A DNA stretch of 64,000 nucleotides from Burkholderiaceae bacterium (lineage in GTDB: Bacteria; Pseudomonadota; Gammaproteobacteria; Burkholderiales; Burkholderiaceae_C). Positions 4,803 through 40,794 of the stretch are shown here, piece after piece. The stretch's first letter is position 1; the number at the start of each line of letters is the position of its first letter. The stretch covers positions 293,249-357,248 of the forward strand of contig JAGOPK010000006.1 of NCBI GenBank assembly GCA_017992055.1, read 5' to 3'. A program made the position numbers and the translations under genes. The notes beneath the pieces are model-generated. The model was not told where the DNA came from and did no database searches. It saw only the letters and a program-made list of their open reading frames with translations.

Positions 4803-5660
4803 ATGTTCGTCATCGTCGGTTGGGTTCTCGCCATCGCCTGCATCTTCGGCGTGTACATCGTGCACGGCGGCAACATGGGCGTGATCCTGAAGGCCTTGCC
4901 CTTCGAGTTCACCACCATCTTCGGCTCGGCCTTCGGCGCCTTCCTGGTCAATAACCAGATGAAGGTGGTCAAGGCCACCATGGCCGGCCTGGGCCGCTGC
5001 TTCAAGGGCAGCAAGTTCAGCAAGGCCCGCTATATGGAGCTGCTGGCGCTGATGTACGACATCCTGCAGAAGGCGCGCAAGGAAGGCCTGATGTCGATCG
5101 AGAAGGACGTCGAGGACCCGCACAGCTCGGCCATCTTTCAGAAGTACCCGACCGTGGGCAACGACCACCATGTGGTGGAGTTCATCACCGACTACCTGCG
5201 CATGATGGTCTCGGGCAACCTCAATGCCCATGAGATCGAGAGCCTGATGGACTCGGAGATCGAGACCCACCACCAGGAAGAGCATGCGGCGGTGGCGGCC
5301 ATCGCGCGCCTGGCCGGCGGCCTGCCGGCCTTCGGCATCGTGGCCGCCGTGCTGGGCGTGGTCAACACCATGGGCTCGGTGGGCCAGCCGCCGGCGGTGT
5401 TGGGCGGCATGATCGGCTCGGCCCTGGTCGGTACCTTCCTGGGCATTCTGCTGGCCTATGGCTTCGTCGAGCCGCTGGGCGGCCTGCTGGAGCAGAAGGT
5501 CGAGGACGCCGGCAAGGAACTGCAGTGCATCAAGACCACGCTGCTGGCCAGCATGCAGGGCTATGCGCCGCAGGTGGCCATCGAGTTCGGCCGCAAGGTG
5601 CTGTTCTCGGGCGATCGCCCGTCGTTCAGCGAGCTTGAGCAGCACGTCAAGAAGAAGTGA
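4803..5660 (+). CDS. motA: Flagellar motor stator protein MotA
   Basis: MotA is the multi-pass stator subunit that, with MotB, conducts ions and turns the flagellar rotor. The 285-residue product has four membrane helices in the usual places. It also has the charged cytoplasmic residues that contact FliG (R92 and E100 in ARKEGLMSIE, matching R90 and E98 of E. coli) and the channel proline P175 in LPAFGIV (P173 in E. coli). motB begins 33 bp downstream. A sigma-28 promoter lies just upstream at 4719-4745. Confidence 0.97.
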   Translation: MFVIVGWVLAIACIFGVYIVHGGNMGVILKALPFEFTTIFGSAFGAFLVNNQMKVVKATMAGLGRCFKGSKFSKARYMELLALMYDILQKARKEGLMSIEKDVEDPHSSAIFQKYPTVGNDHHVVEFITDYLRMMVSGNLNAHEIESLMDSEIETHHQEEHAAVAAIARLAGGLPAFGIVAAVLGVVNTMGSVGQPPAVLGGMIGSALVGTFLGILLAYGFVEPLGGLLEQKVEDAGKELQCIKTTLLASMQGYAPQVAIEFGRKVLFSGDRPSFSELEQHVKKK

Positions 5661-33525: not shown

Positions 33526-33560
33526 AAAAAAAGAGCCCCGCGGTGCAGGCACCGGGGGGC
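33526..33560 (-). terminator. Intrinsic terminator of the nrtABD operon
   Basis: On the minus strand a GC-rich stem runs from 33560 to 33535 (outer GCCCC/GGGGC, inner GGTG/CACC around a CCTG loop) and is followed by TCTTTTTTT. It lies about 110 bp after the nrtD stop and also insulates the downstream histidine-phosphatase gene. Confidence 0.88.
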
Positions 33561-33668
33561 CGGACTAAAGGGCAAGGGCCCTGCTGAGGAGATAGACAGA
33601 CACCTCGCGGTGCCGATCAATGTTGAGCAAGGGGCGTGCCAGGCGCCTGCCTGCCGACCCGGCGCAGC

Positions 33669-34466
33669 TCAGGCCGCCTTCTCCACATGCCCATGCCGGG
33701 TGTAGAGGAAGTCCAGCACCTCCTTGCGGCAGTGCATATAGGCCGGGTCCTCGGCCAGTTCCACGCGGTTGCGCGGCCGCGGCAGGTCCACTTCCAGGAT
33801 CTGGCCGATGGTGGCGGCGGGCCCATTGGTCATCATCACGATGCGGTCGGAGAGCAGCACCGCCTCGTCCACGTCGTGGGTCACCATCACCACCGTGCTT
33901 TGCGTGCGGGCGACGATCTTCAGCAGCTCGTCCTGCAGATGGGCGCGGGTCAGCGCGTCCAGTGCCCCGAAGGGCTCGTCCATCAGCAGCACCTTGGGCT
34001 CCATGGCCAGGGCGCGGGCGATGCCCACGCGCTGCTTCATGCCGCCGGAGATCTCGTGCGGCCGCTTGGACGCCGCATGGCCCATGTTCACCAGTTCCAG
34101 CGCGGCCAGCGTGCGCGCCTTCAACTGGGCCTTGGACTCGGCCGCGCCGAACACCCGCTCCACCGCCAGGTAGACGTTGTCGAAGCAGGTCAGCCAGGGC
34201 AGCAGCGAATGGTTCTGGAACACCACCGCGCGCTCGGGGCCGGGGGCCTTGATCTCCTTGTTGTCGCACAGCAGCACGCCCTCGCTGGGCAGGGTCAGGC
34301 CGGCGATCAGGTTCAGCAGCGTGCTCTTGCCGCAGCCCGAATGGCCGATCAGCGCGATGAACTCGCCCTTGTGGATCTGCAGGTGGATGTCGCGCAGCGC
34401 GTGGAAGCGGCCCTTCTTGGTGCTGAACACCATCTCGGCGCCCTGGACTTCAATAAACGCAGTCAT
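33669..34466 (-). CDS. nrtD: Nitrate ABC transporter ATP-binding protein (NrtD type)
   Basis: The 265-residue ATPase belongs to the NrtD/TauB/SsuB class that powers uptake of nitrate and similar anions. Motifs are Walker A GHSGCGKST, VFQNHSLLPWLTCFDNV, signature ISGGMKQRVGIARAL, Walker B VLLMDEPFGALDALTR and the H-loop VTHDVDEA. Unlike cyanobacterial NrtC it has no fused solute-binding domain. The ATG at 34466 has an AAGGAAAC ribosome site. It is the last gene of the operon, and the terminator follows. Confidence 0.92.
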   Translation of the reverse strand: MTAFIEVQGAEMVFSTKKGRFHALRDIHLQIHKGEFIALIGHSGCGKSTLLNLIAGLTLPSEGVLLCDNKEIKAPGPERAVVFQNHSLLPWLTCFDNVYLAVERVFGAAESKAQLKARTLAALELVNMGHAASKRPHEISGGMKQRVGIARALAMEPKVLLMDEPFGALDALTRAHLQDELLKIVARTQSTVVMVTHDVDEAVLLSDRIVMMTNGPAATIGQILEVDLPRPRNRVELAEDPAYMHCRKEVLDFLYTRHGHVEKAA

Positions 34467-34492
34467 GGTCGTTTCCTTGGAGGGGTTCCGGA

Positions 34493-35410
34493 TCAGCTGT
34501 CGAACGAGAAGCGCTTGGCCAGCAGCATCAGCGCCTGCTCGAGCAGCAGACCGACGATGCCGATGACGAAGATGGCGATGATGATGTGCTGGACGTTGAG
34601 GTTGTTCCACTCGTCCCAGACCCAGAAGCCGATGCCCACGCCGCCGGTCAGCATCTCGGCGGCCACGATCACCAGCCAGGCCGTGCCCACCGACAGGCGC
34701 ACGCCGGTCAGCATGTAGGGCAGCACGGCCGGGAACAGGATGCGCGTGATGACCTTCCATTCGCTGAGGTTCAGCACCCGGGCCACATTGAGGTAGTCCT
34801 GCGGCACGCGCTGCACGCCGACTGCGGTGTTGATGACCATGGGCCAGATCGAGCAGATGAAGATGGTCCAGATGGCCGCCGGGTTGGCGCTCTTGAACAC
34901 CAGCAGGCCGATCGGCAGCCAGGCCAGTGGCGACACCGGGCGCAACAGGCTGATCAGCGGGTTGACCATGCGGTTGAGCACCTCGAAGCGCCCCAGCATG
35001 AAGCCCAGCGGGATGCCCACCGCGGCGGCCAGGCCGAAGCCGAGGGCCACGCGCTGCAGCGAGTTGAGGATGTTCCAGCCGATGCCCTGGTCATTGGGGC
35101 CGTTGCGGTAGAACGGGTCGGCAAACAGCTTGACCGCCGCGTCCCAGGTCTTGGCCGGTGACGGGAAGGCGCTGCTGTTCATCGTCGCCAGCGCCCACAC
35201 GCCGATCAGCAGGGCCAGGCCGGCGATGGGCGGCAGCACGGTCAGCGCGAGGCCGCGCCAGTCGATGGGGGGGCGGGCTGCACGGGCCGGCTTGCTGGCC
35301 GTGGTGGCTGTGGCAGCGGTGGCAGAGGGTGCGGCGGCGGCCGGCAGGCTGCGCGCGGCCGGTTTGGCCACCGGCTCGACCGGGGCGGAATGGAACACGG
35401 CACTGACCAT
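34493..35410 (-). CDS. nrtB: Nitrate ABC transporter permease (NrtB type)
   Basis: The 305-residue inner-membrane permease has a 50-residue Ala/Pro-rich cytoplasmic N-terminus followed by about six helices. The EAA-loop motif of binding-protein-dependent permeases is visible in ARVLNLSEWKVITRILFPAVLP. The stretch GFWVWDEWNNLN is typical of the nitrate, bicarbonate and taurine group. Position between the NrtA-like binding protein and the ATPase, plus the NasT-type leader upstream, supports nitrate/nitrite as the substrate. Confidence 0.92.
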   Translation of the reverse strand: MVSAVFHSAPVEPVAKPAARSLPAAAAPSATAATATTASKPARAARPPIDWRGLALTVLPPIAGLALLIGVWALATMNSSAFPSPAKTWDAAVKLFADPFYRNGPNDQGIGWNILNSLQRVALGFGLAAAVGIPLGFMLGRFEVLNRMVNPLISLLRPVSPLAWLPIGLLVFKSANPAAIWTIFICSIWPMVINTAVGVQRVPQDYLNVARVLNLSEWKVITRILFPAVLPYMLTGVRLSVGTAWLVIVAAEMLTGGVGIGFWVWDEWNNLNVQHIIIAIFVIGIVGLLLEQALMLLAKRFSFDS

Positions 35411-35465: not shown

Positions 35466-36686
35466 TCAGGCGCGGACCTTGAACGAGTCGGCGTACTTGG
35501 CCGGGTCCTTGCCGTCCCAGACCACGCCGTCGATGAACTTGCTGCTGCGCATGTCGCTCTTGGGCAGGCTGGCCTTGACGCCGGCCGCGGCCTCCTTGTA
35601 GAGCGCCACCTGGTTGACCTGCTTGGCCACCGCCAGGTAGTCCGGATGCTCCTTGATCAGGCCCCAGCGCTTGTGCTGGGTCAGGAACCACATGCCGTCC
35701 GACAGGTACGGGAAGTTGACCGCGCCGTCGTTGAAGAACTTCATGTGGTCGGGGTCGTCCCAGGTCTTGCCCAGGCCGTTCTGGTAGCGGCCCAGGATGC
35801 GCTGGTTGATGGCATCGACGCTGGTGTTGACATAGGCCTTGTCGGCGATGGTCTCGGCCATCTTCATCTTGTTCTGCAGGCCGGCATCGATCCACTTGCC
35901 GGCCTCGATGATGGCCATCATCACCGCGCGGGCGGTGTTGGGGTACTTCTTGACGAAGTCGCCGGTGGTGCCCAGCACCTTCTCCGGATGGTCCTTCCAC
36001 ACCTGCTGGGTGGTGGCCGCGGTGATGCCGATGCCGTCGATGATGGCGCGGTGGTTCCAGGGCTCGCCGACGCAGAAGCCGTCCATGTTGCCCACGCGCA
36101 TATTGGCCACCATCTGCGGCGGCGGCACGGTGATGACCTTGGCGTCCTTCATCGGATTGATGCCCGCCGAGGCCAGCCAGTAGTACAGCCACATCGCATG
36201 CGTGCCGGTCGGGAAGGTCTGCGCGAAGGTGTATTCGCGCTTCTCGGCGGCCATCAGCTTGGCCAGGCCGCCCACGTCCACCGCGCCCTTGTCGGCCAGC
36301 TTCTTGGACAGGGTCAGCGCCTGGCCGTTGTGGTTCAGGTTCATCAGCACGGCCATGTCTTTCTTCGGCCCGGCCGTGCCCAGGTGCACGCCGTAGATCA
36401 GGCCGTACAGCACATGGGCCATGTCCAGTTCGCCATTGACCAGCTTGTCGCGCACACCGGCCCAGCTGGCCTCCTTGGTGGGCACGATCTTCACGCCGTA
36501 CTTCTTGTCGAAGCCCAGCACGCTGGCCATCACCACGCTGGCGCAGTCGGTCAGCGGGATGAAGCCGATGCGCACTTCCTCCTTCTCGGGCTTGTCCGAG
36601 CCAGCGGCATAGACGGCGCTGCGCAGGCCGGGCAGCAGGCCGGCGCCGCCGACGGCAGCGGCCTGGATCAGGGAACGGCGGGTCAT
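35466..36686 (-). CDS. nrtA: Nitrate/nitrite ABC transporter substrate-binding protein (NrtA type)
   Basis: The 406-residue product starts MTRRSLIQAAAVGGAGLL, a twin-arginine-type signal ending near YAA-GS. It continues as a NrtA/CmpA-family binding protein: IGFIPLTDCASVVMAS, FAQTFPTGTHAMWLYYWL, PPPQMVANMRVGNMDGFCVGEPW. An AAGGAAG ribosome site supports this ATG; an in-frame ATG at 36752 would add 22 residues before the twin arginines. The gene follows a 200-nt regulated leader with sigma-54 promoter, ANTAR hairpins and terminator. It could also act as the NasS-like nitrate sensor for NasT, but the signal peptide argues for export. Confidence 0.92.
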   Translation of the reverse strand: MTRRSLIQAAAVGGAGLLPGLRSAVYAAGSDKPEKEEVRIGFIPLTDCASVVMASVLGFDKKYGVKIVPTKEASWAGVRDKLVNGELDMAHVLYGLIYGVHLGTAGPKKDMAVLMNLNHNGQALTLSKKLADKGAVDVGGLAKLMAAEKREYTFAQTFPTGTHAMWLYYWLASAGINPMKDAKVITVPPPQMVANMRVGNMDGFCVGEPWNHRAIIDGIGITAATTQQVWKDHPEKVLGTTGDFVKKYPNTARAVMMAIIEAGKWIDAGLQNKMKMAETIADKAYVNTSVDAINQRILGRYQNGLGKTWDDPDHMKFFNDGAVNFPYLSDGMWFLTQHKRWGLIKEHPDYLAVAKQVNQVALYKEAAAGVKASLPKSDMRSSKFIDGVVWDGKDPAKYADSFKVRA

Positions 36687-36796
36687 GGTGGTCGCTTCCT
36701 TGGCGGGGGGCGTAGCTAGGGGCGTATCGACGGGCGTGAGGGGACGGGACATCGTGGCTTCTCGCTTCCAGGGCTGGCCGATTGAGGCGTGCAGAC

Positions 36797-36854
36797 AAAC
36801 AAAAAGGCGTCCTGACCAGCCCGCTGCGGCGCAGCGGGGGGTCAAGGACGCCTT
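36797..36854 (-). terminator. Leader (attenuator) terminator upstream of nrtA
   Basis: On the minus strand AAGGCGTCCT (36854-36845) pairs perfectly with AGGACGCCTT (36813-36804). An inner CCGCTGC/GCAGCGG stem extends it, and it ends in TTTTTGTTT. It lies about 110 nt before nrtA. Just upstream, GGACG-AAGG-CGTCC could form a smaller hairpin that takes the 5' arm of the terminator, a candidate antiterminator. Confidence 0.9.
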
Positions 36855-36866
36855 CGTCCGGGACCG

Positions 36867-36919
36867 ATGCATCGTCAATGACGCACCAGAACCATGTTGC
36901 TGGGGTCGTCGTTGACCCC
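36867..36919 (-). promoter_or_regulatory. ANTAR-responsive tandem hexaloop hairpins
   Basis: Two hairpins read on the minus strand fit the ANTAR target motif, which needs hexanucleotide loops with A at position 1 and G at position 4. The first is GGGGTC-AACGAC-GACCCC (36919-36902). The second is GTGCGTC-ATTGAC-GATGCAT (36886-36867), with two G-T pairs. They lie directly upstream of the leader terminator, and the ANTAR protein NasT is encoded just upstream on the same strand. NasT binding would be expected to prevent termination. Confidence 0.85.
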
Positions 36920-36933
36920 CACGCAGTCTCTTG

Positions 36934-36949
36934 AGCAATCGGTGTGCCA
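36934..36949 (-). promoter_or_regulatory. Sigma-54 promoter of the nrtABD operon
   Basis: On the minus strand TGGCAC-ACCGA-TTGCT is an exact match to the sigma-54 consensus TGGCAC-N5-TTGCW, with GG at -24 and GC at -12. The predicted transcription start (about 36923) falls a few bases before the first ANTAR hairpin. Confidence 0.85.
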
Positions 36950-36999
36950 GGGCTGCGGGCCGCTTTGGAGGGGGATCTGCGGCCTCTCCACGGCCTTGG

Positions 37000-37037
37000 T
37001 GCACCAGCACTGCGCCGCCGTGCCTCGGCGCGGTGCG
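37000..37037 (-). promoter_or_regulatory. Two NtrC-like enhancer boxes
   Basis: TGCACC-N5-TGCGCC (37000-37016) and TGCCTC-N5-GGTGCG (37021-37037), read on the plus strand, each match 9 of 12 bases of the NtrC consensus TGCACY-N5-RGTGCA. Their centres lie about 85 and 106 bp upstream of the predicted sigma-54 start and are 21 bp apart, two helical turns. They are imperfect sites, so this is a candidate. Confidence 0.5.
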
Positions 37038-37056: not shown

Positions 37057-37695
37057 TCAGCCCAGCAGGTCGGCCGCGTCGATGATGCGTTGGGCCAGGT
37101 CCACCAGCTTCAGCTTGCGGTCCATGGCGCCGCGGCGCAGCCGCGCATAGGCCTCTTCTTCGCTGAGGCCCTGGCGCTTCATCATCAGGCCCTTGGCGCG
37201 CTCGATGGTCTTGCGCTCGTTGAGCTGGTTGCGCGCGCTGGCCAGCTCCTGGCGCAGCGATTCCTCGACCTGGAAGCGGGCCATCGCCACCTCCAGCACC
37301 GGCTTCACGCGCTCGGGCGCCAGCCCGGCCACCACATAGGCGCTGACCCCGGCGGCGATGGCATCGCGCACATGGCTGGTGTCCTCGTCGTCGGTGAACA
37401 TCACGATCGGCCGGCGCTCGTCGCGCGTGGCCAGCACCACATGCTCCAGCGTGTCGCGGGCCTGGCTCTCGGCGTCGACGATCACCAGGTCGGGCTGGAT
37501 CTGCGCCAGCTGCACCGGCAGGAACATGTCGGCCGGCAGCACCGCGACGATGTTGTAGCCGGCCTGCAGCAGGCCGATGCGCAGGCTGCGCGAGCGCTCG
37601 GCCTCGCTCCAGGCCTGGGCATCATCGGCATCGGGCACCAGCGATTCGGGTGCGACGATGACGATGCGCAGCGGGCGCGGATCGGGCGGCAACAT
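37057..37695 (-). CDS. nasT: ANTAR-domain response regulator, NasT-like
   Basis: The 212-residue product has an N-terminal receiver-like domain (about 10-125) without the usual acidic triad and phospho-acceptor, and a C-terminal ANTAR RNA-binding domain (about 145-207): NERKTIERAKGLMMKR and EEEAYARLRRGAMDRK. NasT proteins bind paired hexaloop hairpins in nitrate-assimilation leaders and block termination when the sensor NasS releases them upon nitrate binding. A matching leader lies just downstream (36797-36919). No separate nasS gene is in view. Confidence 0.93.
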   Translation of the reverse strand: MLPPDPRPLRIVIVAPESLVPDADDAQAWSEAERSRSLRIGLLQAGYNIVAVLPADMFLPVQLAQIQPDLVIVDAESQARDTLEHVVLATRDERRPIVMFTDDEDTSHVRDAIAAGVSAYVVAGLAPERVKPVLEVAMARFQVEESLRQELASARNQLNERKTIERAKGLMMKRQGLSEEEAYARLRRGAMDRKLKLVDLAQRIIDAADLLG

Positions 37696-37763: not shown

Positions 37764-39563
37764 ATGAGCTTCGACGTCGACATCGGCCATGCCAGCGCCA
37801 GCGGTCCGCGCCCGGTCAACGAGGACTTTGTCGGCGCCCTGCGCAGCAGCGAGCGGGGCCGCGGCGTGGTGGCGGCGCTGGCCGATGGCGTGTCCACCGG
37901 CGGGCGTGGCCGCGAGGCCGCGCAGAGCACGGTGATGGGCCTGCTGGCCGACTTTTTTGCCACTCCCGAGACCTGGCAGACCACGGTGGTGTTCGACCGC
38001 CTGATCTCGGCGCAGAACGGCTGGTTGGCCGACCACAACCGCCGCCGCTCGCGCGAGGCCGATGGCACGGCGCTGACCACGCTGACCGCGCTGGCCCTGC
38101 GTGGCCAGACCTGGACCGTGGCCCATGTCGGCGACAGCCGCGCCTGGCTGCTGCGCGACGAGGCCGAGCCCGCACCGGAACCCCAACTCGATCCCGCCGC
38201 GCTGCGCCCGCCGGCCCTGCTGCAGCCGCTGACCCAGGACCATGCCTTCGAGGCGCTGGACCTGCGCTCGCGCCTGACCCGCGCCGTGGGCCTGGACGAT
38301 GTGGTGCGCATCGACCACCTGCAGGGCGAGGCGCGCATCGGCGACAGCTTCGTGCTCAGCAGCGACGGCGTGCACGGTGTGCTCAAGCCGGCGGCGATGA
38401 GCGCGCTGCTGCGTGGCGCGGCCACCGCCCAGCAGGCCGCCGAAGCCCTGGTGGAGGCGGCGCTGCAGGCCGGTGGCCGCGACAACGCCAGCGCCCTGGT
38501 GCTGCGTGTCACCGGCCTGGACGAGCGCGACCTGCACGACGAGCGCGCCCAGGTGCACGAGCTGCCGGTGCCCGCGCTGCTGAAGGTGGGCGAGCTGCTG
38601 GACGGCTACCAGATCACCGCGCGGGTGGCCGACAACGGCATCCACCGCCTGTACCAGGCCCGCGATGTGGGCAGCGGCGGTGCCGGCGGCCCGCTGGTGG
38701 CGATCAAGACCCTGCACCCCAGCCGGGCCAGCGACGCCGAGGAACGCACGATGCTGGCGCACGAGGCCTGGCTGGCCCTGCGTGTGGCCGGCGAGGGCGA
38801 GGCCGGCGCCGCCGACGACCCCGGCGAGCCCGGCTTTGTGCGTGTGCATGCGCGCCGGCGCCAGGCCACGGCGCTGTACTGGGTCTACGACTGGCATGGC
38901 GGCCGCACCATGGAACAGCTGGCCGCCGATGGCGCCCTGCCCACCGTGGGCGAGGTGGTGGCCGCGGCCCAGGCCGTGGCCCTGGCCCTGGGCCGGCTGC
39001 ACCGCCTGGGCGTGGTGCACCGCGACATCAAGCCGGGCAATCTGCACCGCGGCGACGACGGCCGCTGGCGCGTGCTCGATCTGGGCGCGGCCATCAGCGG
39101 CCGCGAGTCGGCGGCCCAGCGTGAACTGCATGCCGGCACGCCCAGCTACATGAACCCCGAGCAGTGGCAGGGCGCCGCCGCCGATGCCGCCAGCGACCTG
39201 TTCGCGCTGGCCGTCTCGCTGTACCAGTGGCTGACCGGGCGCCTGCCCTATGGCGAGGTCGAGCCCTATCAGCTCGGGCGTTATCGGCGCGATCCGGTGC
39301 CGGTGTCGCGGCTGCGGCCCGATGTGCCGATGTGGCTGGATCATCTGCTGGCCAAGGCCCTGGCGCGTGAGCCGCGCGAGCGTTTCGAGACCGCCGAAGA
39401 GCTGCTGCTGGCCTTGCAGCGTGGCGCCGCCCGTCCGCTGGCCGCGCCGCGGGCCACGCCGCTGTTGCAGCGCGATCCCGCCGCGCTGCTGAAGGCCGCG
39501 CTGGGGGTGTCGCTGCTGTTCAACGGGCTGCTGATCGTCTGGCTGCTGTTCCTGCCGCGCTGA
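37764..39563 (+). CDS. Bifunctional PP2C-type phosphatase / Ser/Thr protein kinase
   Basis: The 599-residue product joins two opposing enzymes. Residues 1-250 are a PP2C phosphatase (RPVNEDF, ALADGVSTGGRG, VAHVGDSRAWL, SSDGVHG, RDNASALVLRV). Residues about 275-545 are a Hanks-type kinase with catalytic lysine in VAIKTLH, HRDIKPGN near 419, DLG in place of DFG and GTPSYMNPEQ. One membrane helix (about 574-594) ends the protein. Proteins of this layout recur beside nitrate transport and nitrite reductase genes in proteobacteria, and a NarK-type transporter overlaps it here. Its target is unknown; tuning of nitrate transport is inference. The 3' ends of the two genes overlap by 44 bases. Confidence 0.92.
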   Translation: MSFDVDIGHASASGPRPVNEDFVGALRSSERGRGVVAALADGVSTGGRGREAAQSTVMGLLADFFATPETWQTTVVFDRLISAQNGWLADHNRRRSREADGTALTTLTALALRGQTWTVAHVGDSRAWLLRDEAEPAPEPQLDPAALRPPALLQPLTQDHAFEALDLRSRLTRAVGLDDVVRIDHLQGEARIGDSFVLSSDGVHGVLKPAAMSALLRGAATAQQAAEALVEAALQAGGRDNASALVLRVTGLDERDLHDERAQVHELPVPALLKVGELLDGYQITARVADNGIHRLYQARDVGSGGAGGPLVAIKTLHPSRASDAEERTMLAHEAWLALRVAGEGEAGAADDPGEPGFVRVHARRRQATALYWVYDWHGGRTMEQLAADGALPTVGEVVAAAQAVALALGRLHRLGVVHRDIKPGNLHRGDDGRWRVLDLGAAISGRESAAQRELHAGTPSYMNPEQWQGAAADAASDLFALAVSLYQWLTGRLPYGEVEPYQLGRYRRDPVPVSRLRPDVPMWLDHLLAKALAREPRERFETAEELLLALQRGAARPLAAPRATPLLQRDPAALLKAALGVSLLFNGLLIVWLLFLPR

Positions 39564-40794
39564 CCGGCGCCGCGCCGCGCTGCTGCACGGGCCTGGCCCG
39601 GCCACCCTTCTCGGCCCAGGTGCGGGTCCAGCGGATCTGCACGATGCGCAGCATGGCCAGCATCACCAGGGCCAGCGCGGTGAAGGCCAGGAAGCCGCCC
39701 AGGTAGCTGCCGCTGTACTGCTTGGACAGGCCCATGGCATTGGGCAGGAAGCCGCCGCCCAGCGCACCGACCTCGCCGATCATCGAGCCGGCCACCGCGG
39801 TGGTCAGCGGCCAGCGCAGCGGCACCAGCTGGAACAGCGCGCCATTGCCGGCGCCCAGGGCCGCGAAGCACAGCATGAACAGCAGCGTGGTCAGCACCAG
39901 CGACTGGCCGGCAAAGCCGCAGGCCGCCAGCGCACCGGCCACCACCAGCAGCACGCCGCTGAGCGTGTGGATGCCGCCGATGCGGTCGGCGATCCAGCCG
40001 CCCACCACGCGCACGGCCGAGCCCATCAGCGTGGCCAGCATGGTCAGCTGGCCAGCCTCGATCTTGCTGACCTTGAACTGGTCGTAGAAATAGGTCGGCA
40101 GAAAGCTGGCCAGGCCGATGAAACCGCCGAAGGTGACGATGTAGATCAGGCTGAACGACCAGCCGTCCTTCTCGAACAAGCAGGACAGGTGCTCGCGCAG
40201 CGTCTGGTGCTCGCGGTCCGGCGGCTCCTTGGCGGCAAACCACATCACCAGCATCGGCAGCAGCATGGTGGCGGCGGCGATGCCGTACACCGTCTGCCAG
40301 CCGAAGGCCTGGGCCAGCGGCGGCGCAAACAGCACGGCCAGCACCGTGCCCGAGTTGCCAGCACCGGCAATGCCCATGGCCAGGCCCTTGTACTGCGGCG
40401 GAAACCAGCCCGAGCCCAGGCTCAGCGCCACGCCGAAGCTGGCGCCGGCAATGCCCAGCAGCACGCCCATGGCCAGCACGCTGTCGTAGCTGTCGACGAA
40501 CAGGAAGCCGAAGCCCAGGGCCAGCACGATCAGGCCCATCTCGACCATGGCCGCGTTCTTGCGGCCGATGTACTGCGCCAGCACGCCCAGCGGAAAGCGC
40601 ATCAGCGCGCCGGCCAGGATGGGCACCGAGATCATGAAGCCCTTCTGCGCCGCATTCAGGCCGAAGGTCTCGCTGATGAACGGTGCCATCGCGCCGTTCA
40701 GCACCCAGATCGCGAAGCAGAAGTCGAAGTACAGGAACGACGCGGCCAGCGTCGGCCAATGGCCCGAGCGGAGAAAGGTCTTGAATTGGGACAT
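39520..40794 (-). CDS. narK: Nitrate/nitrite MFS transporter, NarK/NasA type
   Basis: The 424-residue major-facilitator protein has 12 predicted helices. The nitrate-signature regions of the NNP family are visible as [19 protein letters not shown] and [12 protein letters not shown], and [20 protein letters not shown] is a typical NarK1-like first helix. The C-terminal tail is basic and Ala-rich. It is convergent with the PP2C-kinase gene (44-base overlap) and close to nasT-nrtABD, so the locus encodes both a primary and a secondary nitrate/nitrite uptake route. Transport direction cannot be read from sequence. Confidence 0.92.

Follow-up and report, generated by a model that had tools for sequence, protein, structure and literature searches.

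The question raised by this locus is how nrtABD, which lies behind a nasT gene on the minus strand of the window (the whole stretch of 64,000 nucleotides that was analysed), is switched on. A sequence-only reading had proposed two layers of control, a sigma-54/NtrC promoter followed by an ANTAR antitermination leader, and the conservation described below makes that mechanism very likely right. Taken as a whole, the locus is with high probability a two-layer nitrate-uptake switch, in which sigma-54 and NtrC would start transcription and an ANTAR protein would let it pass a terminator. The genes concerned are:

37057-37695, minus strand: nasT, encoding 212 amino acids with a receiver-like part and an ANTAR antiterminator domain (PF03861, 70 bits)
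35466-36752, minus strand: nrtA, nitrate-binding protein (PF13379, 339 bits), with its start at 36752 or 36686
34493-35410, minus strand: nrtB, permease (TIGR01183, 254 bits, over the cut-off)
33669-34625, minus strand: nrtD, ATP-binding protein (TIGR01184, 345 bits, over the cut-off)

The NasT-type ANTAR gene is thus found where it had been placed, just upstream of the leader. Its product is recognised as a NasT with an ANTAR domain by the PF03861 match and by the alignment of residues 38-206 to the PDB antiterminators 6wsh and 1s8n, which we take to be EutV and Rv1626; a search of the protein for a Pfam receiver match found none. The RNA-contacting residues of EutV are R142, K143, Y164, M172 and K147 (PMC8934654; excerpts, as for all papers cited here), and in the alignment the first four correspond to R161, K162, Y183 and M191 of NasT, while K147 is replaced by R166. 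Divergent from nasT is a PP2C-kinase fusion gene (37764-39563, plus strand), adjoined by a gene for a NarK-type transporter (39520-40794, minus strand), and this pair recurs close to nitrate genes in some relatives.

The first layer is made up of the following elements, all located between nasT and nrtA:

36949-36934, minus strand: sigma-54 (-24/-12) promoter TGGCACACCGATTGCT, TGGCAC-ACCGA-TTGCT, exact consensus
about 36923, minus strand: start (+1) of the nrtA leader, predicted from the sigma-54 promoter
37037-37021, 37016-37000 and 37003-36987, minus strand: three NtrC-like boxes, agreeing with 9/12, 9/12 and 10/12 consensus positions

The exact promoter and the two boxes spaced 21 bp apart had both been read from the letters and are present, and a third box, overlapping the second, can be added; the nrtA promoter thereby has the form of a sigma-54/NtrC promoter, TGGCAC-N5-TTGCW with NtrC sites upstream. 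Across the 5.9-Mb genome the exact sigma-54 pattern occurs at six places, compared with two for a backward control pattern. A sigma-54-like site with at most 2 mismatches is located near nrtA in 58 of 60 family loci and 69 of 80 named loci. Among the 11 named loci without such a site, nrtA was not found in six and lies 3.4-3.6 kb off in two, one (L167) is an overlap by rule, and in the last two (L178 and L180) the leader has no room. In both of these Janthinobacterium loci nrtA follows nasT after 44-56 bp. The best NtrC-like box reaches at least 10/12 in 65 of 124 homologous leaders, against 5.6 expected from shuffles, and at least 9/12 in 112 of them, against 39 expected. An ntrC gene, scoring over the curated cut-off, is encoded in the genome. 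Conservation therefore supports the sigma-54/NtrC layer. In a relative, Acidovorax citrulli, loss of ntrC leaves the organism unable to use nitrate, with the gene called nasS down and nasT up in the mutant (PMC10052978); the gene called nasS in that study may be nrtA.

The second layer resides in the leader itself, which contains:

36919-36902, minus strand: P1, GGGGTC-AACGAC-GACCCC, a 6-bp hairpin with the hexaloop AACGAC (A1, G4)
36889-36864, minus strand: P2, a 10-bp hairpin with the hexaloop ATTGAC (A1, G4)
36859-36846, minus strand: P3, GGAC-GAAGGC-GTCC (GGACGAAGGCGUCC), with a G1, G4 hexaloop; P3 and the terminator exclude each other
36854-36801, minus strand: intrinsic leader terminator, U5 tract included

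P1 and P2, the two hairpins noticed earlier, supply what an ANTAR target is expected to have, namely two or more A1/G4 hexaloop hairpins, and only 0.1% of 5000 dinucleotide shuffles of the window leader hold as many with stems of at least 5 bp. The intrinsic terminator before nrtA is likewise present, the stretch 36795-36936, terminator included, giving a folding z of -6.1. With nasT upstream on the same strand, a terminator at this position would end the nasT mRNA too, and the stem-loop could be thought to serve only that end, leaving nrtABD under sigma-54 alone. Such a reading is very improbable, since the terminator lies downstream of the sigma-54 start and must be passed for nrtA to be transcribed, and since the hexaloops are conserved and covary.

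The layout of promoter, hairpins, terminator and nrt genes recurs in relatives, nearly all of them Burkholderiales, with covarying hairpins; the closest named NasT relatives belong to Azohydromonas, Caldimonas, Rhizobacter and Piscinibacter, in a comparison that may omit records of the genome itself, and this makes an origin of the window in Burkholderiales very likely. NasT matches were obtained in 74 of 150 family genomes, 60 of which were taken for locus analysis. An NrtA match follows nasT on the same strand in 58 of these 60 loci, two of which, L070 and L074, have it at a distance of 2.8-3.4 kb. Counting stems of 5 bp or longer, the leaders contain a mean of 1.22 A1/G4 hexaloops, compared with 0.04 in shuffles, and two or more are seen in 18 of 59 leaders where 0.04 would be expected. 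In each of the two leader groups, unguided RNAalifold recovered P1, P2 and the terminator. A helix that it also placed inside the promoter was rejected as spurious, the promoter being untranscribed. Base-pair changes on both sides amount to 45 cells versus 12.2 after shuffling (24 leaders), and to 26 versus 8.8 in the window's clade (15 leaders), where "further pair types" do not exceed the shuffled level, 452 of 500 shuffles having reached the same value. With the partners slid by 1-3 columns, at most 57% of the cells are paired, compared with 95.5 and 93.3% before. Loop counts by size are confounded for P1, where A1-U6 or G1-C6 closing pairs make hexaloops resemble tetraloops, and some P1 loops are plainly GNRA (GAAA in L059, for example). 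Conservation supports the ANTAR-type antitermination layer as well.

A leader model, R1, finds one clear copy in the genome (42.3 bits, the next match scoring 21.8) and matches 72 of the 150 family genomes. NasT is present in 48 of these, a strong NIT match without NasT in 21 (the cut of 100 bits being set by hand), and neither in three (G011, G058 and G095). Conversely, a leader match at E<=0.01 is lacking in 24 of 72 genomes with NasT, and in 18 of these 24 NasT is at most 55% identical; the 72 are the 74 genomes given above minus G058 and G114, whose sole match was to ANTAR-PilJ, the second long ANTAR protein considered below. Twelve extra leader copies in other genomes were examined, and the seven with a readable gene, which were tested, precede nirB (5/7) or narK (2/7).

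P3 departs from the earlier view of the leader. It had been taken as a small GGACG-AAGG-CGTCC hairpin and a candidate antiterminator, a role that conservation supports, but it is better read as GGAC-GAAGGC-GTCC, a third hexaloop. The paired-hexaloop view consequently holds for the presence of P1 and P2 but not for the number of sites, which is three, nor for the one overlapping the terminator: P2 does not overlap the terminator stem, whereas P3 does, its 3' arm being the 5' arm of the terminator (GGCGUCC), but its loop in the window has G1 and not the A1 of an ANTAR site. Many relatives read GGAC-AAAGGC-GTCC or similar directly before the terminator. Of 123 distinct leaders, 121 have a P3-type element, whose loop begins with A in 91 cases and with G in 30; since the search pattern demanded G4 and accepted only A or G as the first loop base, these frequencies are partly by construction. 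This looser rule was used in place of a stricter one that missed 56 of the 123. Upstream of P3, two A1/G4 hexaloops are found in 53 of the 121 leaders, one in 57 and none in 11, and the ladder of three hexaloops is common. G1 also occupies P3 in 13 of the 14 leaders aligned with the window (alignment A1), L044 being the exception.

GGAC, the 5' arm of P3, hardly varies although it is not part of the terminator. Among 34 leaders, in rows that were selected for stems, 6 and 2 have A-U in place of G-C at the two outer pairs, and pairing is kept in all 34; pairing in alignment A4 is by selection, as it holds only leaders chosen for three stems of at least 4 bp. Arm conservation and pair changes together match what the ANTAR model expects of a hexaloop overlapping the terminator (PMC3369931, PMC8934654).

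In folding calculations the A1 form of P3 reaches -4.0 kcal/mol and the G1 form -6.0 kcal/mol, as G1 can pair with C6 to leave a tetraloop. With the 3' arm of the terminator unmade, P1, P2 and P3 all form in the window leader; once that arm is made, the terminator, at -35 kcal/mol, wins. The G1-C6 closing pair, together with the occurrence of G1 in about a quarter of the P3-bearing leaders (30/121), could mean that, in this clade, P3 works as an antiterminator independently of protein, with a 5-bp stem and an AAGG tetraloop, P1 and P2 being the sole ANTAR sites and acting by slowing or shielding. We consider this improbable: the terminator is far more stable, so P3 would need help and would have to be held by protein; the P3-type element of nearly all leaders (121/123) is a hairpin overlapping the terminator; and G4, the base contacted by EutV, stays. 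According to the EutV study, A1 is not contacted and was suggested to prevent cross-loop pairing, G4 stacks on Tyr164, and Met172 may exclude tetraloops (PMC8934654). An uncontacted A1 and a stacked G4 make the G1 of P3 a natural variant to test, and with it the idea that the sole function of A1 is to hold the loop open.

From the architecture, whose conservation and covariation are observed, we infer the binding, read-through and inducing signal of the preferred reading, which is antitermination by a protein that holds P3. Under nitrogen limitation, NtrC-P and sigma-54 would start transcription at about 36923, as suggested by the promoter, the boxes and the ntrC gene, and the nascent RNA would then run into the intrinsic terminator. 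The A/G-NNG hexaloops on the leader would be bound by an ANTAR protein, for which NasT, encoded by the adjacent upstream gene, is the most likely candidate. Held in this way, P3 would keep the 5' arm out of the terminator, allowing nrtABD to be read, with P1 and P2 as probable upstream docking sites.

NasT has been described as half of a NasS-NasT pair, and in Paracoccus NasS is the partner that gates it (PMC3795266). In a large Burkholderiales group including the present genome, NasT stands next to nrtABD and no NasS was found by the searches given below. An NMT1_2 family search of the genome gave NrtA at 340.9 bits, the next match at 82.2 and no NasS, and the Paracoccus NasS query (E<=1e-15) found only NrtA. 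The same query matched 109 of the 150 family genomes, never above 146.1 bits and at 27-34% identity, and no NasS was found among them. The positive control for these scores comes from outside that run and from a different score, BLASTP, by which two NasS proteins score 212 bits mutually versus 137 against the window NrtA. Stretches of up to 6 kb at the 80 named loci contained no NrtA-like match upstream of nasT. The cytoplasmic NrtA-like sensor that completes a NasS-NasT system was therefore not found; the usual gate on NasT is missing and the nitrate input is putative. The AND gate of nitrogen limitation and nitrate that had been proposed is, accordingly, supported by conservation in its nitrogen-limitation half, but its nitrate half is not supported as written, no NasS having been found. 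A second ANTAR protein also exists:

C18:93866-95236 (L011 8367-9737): ANTAR-PilJ, the other long ANTAR protein of the genome, which has PilJ as its C-terminal domain

The PilJ domain is a putative nitrate sensor. The gene lies beside genes that, by reading, resemble an assimilatory nitrate reductase operon; a leader before those reductase genes was looked for and not found. A protein encoded in the genome and combining ANTAR with PilJ might read the nrtA leader alone or jointly with NasT, and would then supply the nitrate information that is unavailable to NasT in the absence of NasS. The congener G011 (L286, leader at 5495) speaks for this, as nasT is absent there while the leader, nrtABD and the small-RNA element described below are kept; at this site a tsaD-like gene (by reading) abuts the nrtA leader, and the kinase-phosphatase gene and narK are absent. 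In another congener, G143, the ANTAR-PilJ gene sits with narK and the kinase-phosphatase gene. The protein is encoded, however, in only 21 of the 150 family genomes, whereas NasT accompanies the leader in two thirds of leader-bearing genomes (48/72), and G011 has a second, short ANTAR match in an open frame of 278 aa, whose product could read the leader in its place. In G011 itself ANTAR-PilJ is the best candidate reader and the short ANTAR protein the other; for the leader in the window a part for ANTAR-PilJ is conceivable but rather unlikely, and NasT is preferred.

A further indication of the signal comes from genomes with a NIT match and no NasT, in 17/21 of which a NIT-ANTAR (NasR-type) gene stands directly upstream of the R1 match. 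NasT and strong NIT matches share 6 genomes versus 18.7 expected, by Fisher tests that ignore kinship among genomes. Before the terminator, leaders behind a NIT match have two A1/G4 hexaloops in 16 of 19 cases, one in three and three in none; this set comprised 20 stretches, one of which (L321) held no leader, as many as 3 mismatches were accepted in the sigma-54 sites, and the ANTAR half was searched in 15 of the 20 genomes. A strict association of three hexaloops with NasT was considered and is ruled out by ten distant-NasT loci (L093-L102) with at most two A1/G4 hexaloops; G071, which has a NIT-ANTAR protein and a NasT-type ladder with G1 in P1, also goes against it. At L288 (in G071) and L287 (in G122), NIT-ANTAR regulators precede NasT-type leaders whose P1 has G1 or no hexaloop, possibly by replacement of the regulator on an inherited leader. 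As NasR senses nitrate (PMC5424462) and NIT-ANTAR replaces NasT at the locus, the swap supports nitrate as the signal, and the inducer is likely nitrate or nitrite. How NasT is gated is directly testable here, since it stands, with no NasS found, before the type of leader that a NIT-ANTAR sensor accompanies in related genomes.

At the far end of the operon two further elements are located:

33641-33626, minus strand: second exact sigma-54 site, 27 nt past the nrtD stop, the only other exact one in the window
33615-33526, minus strand: predicted sigma-54-driven small RNA of about 90 nt, from a predicted start near 33615 to a U tract at 33526

The putative RNA begins with a 5' hairpin and ends with a mini-hairpin followed by a terminator; between them lies single-stranded UGUCUAUCUCCUCAGC, in which UCUCCUC forms an anti-Shine-Dalgarno core. 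The conserved element carries UAUCUCCUCAG(C/U)AGGGC. Within 400 bp after nrtD, a sigma-54-like site (at most 1 mismatch) follows 13 of 111 nrtD ends, and 10 of these 13 have the element, which thus belongs to one part of the group, near the window; further members were also identified. A model, R2, was derived from 11 members chosen because they contain the UCUCCUCAG word. At E<=0.01 it has matches in 70 of 399 genomes, those matches above 1e-4 being doubtful; below 1e-6 there remain 35 genomes with one copy each, ten of them used in training. All 30 R2 loci taken contain UCUCCUCAG, preceded at 49-56 nt by a sigma-54-like site (at most 2 mismatches) in 29, and nrt genes are present at 23 of the 30 loci, each covered over at most 3 kb, so that the element seems able to stand alone. 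None of the Rfam families fits it, the one overlap being PhotoRC-I at 18.3 bits, far below the cut-off, and a literature search (sRNA, sigma54, NtrC, Betaproteobacteria) gave no evident report as judged by listing. Judged from sequence, this conserved sigma-54 small-RNA element looks new, and it may add a post-transcriptional arm to nitrogen control in this Burkholderiales group. Both ends of the operon can tentatively be joined in one scheme, somewhat less than an even bet, in which nrtABD is bracketed by two sigma-54 RNAs: a three-hexaloop leader read by NasT without NasS, nitrate entering by another route such as ANTAR-PilJ, and a post-nrtD small RNA whose UAUCUCCUCAG could silence messages at ribosome-binding sites under nitrogen shortage.

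How far the leader resembles known RNAs can be judged with covariance models, a check suggested together with the sequence-only reading. At gathering thresholds Rfam matched nothing in the window, the leader included; at lax thresholds, besides chance families, two models appeared below cut-off, the narK RNA (RF03032), covering the same stretch at 36869-36948 over the full model length with 24.3 bits (gathering 43.2), and P11 (RF00625), also at full length, with 28.7 bits (gathering 70). Both remained below the Rfam cut-offs in all 39 related loci tried (19 + 20). P11 is presumably the NalA leader RNA.

The two-layer combination of Ntr control and ANTAR antitermination put forward for nrtABD is not new in kind, being already known, in the excerpts available, from Klebsiella nasF with NasR and from Pseudomonas NalA with NasT (PMC5424462, PMC12830290). 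Klebsiella oxytoca nasF shares Ntr control with ANTAR antitermination, there by nitrate, but NasR has its own NIT nitrate sensor, while the adjacent gene here encodes a NasT without NasS (PMC5424462). The Pseudomonas NalA/nirBD leader shares the sigma-54/NtrC start, the leader terminator and NasT antitermination; it differs in preceding nirBD, where the operon here is nrtABD, and in having NasS as part of its system, which was not found in the present genome (PMC12830290). The Enterococcus eut RNAs read by EutV share the G4 hexaloops and, if P3 is counted as an ANTAR site, a terminal hexaloop hairpin overlapping the terminator, and the excerpts of these papers describe two hexaloops per ANTAR target, in contrast to the three hairpins and the G1 in the terminator-overlapping loop of the present leader (PMC3369931, PMC8934654). 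A literature search found no report of three-hexaloop ANTAR targets, which does not prove their absence from print. Set against these systems, the missing partner of NasT looks new, and so does the third hexaloop hairpin P3, overlapping the terminator and having G1 in the window and its clade.
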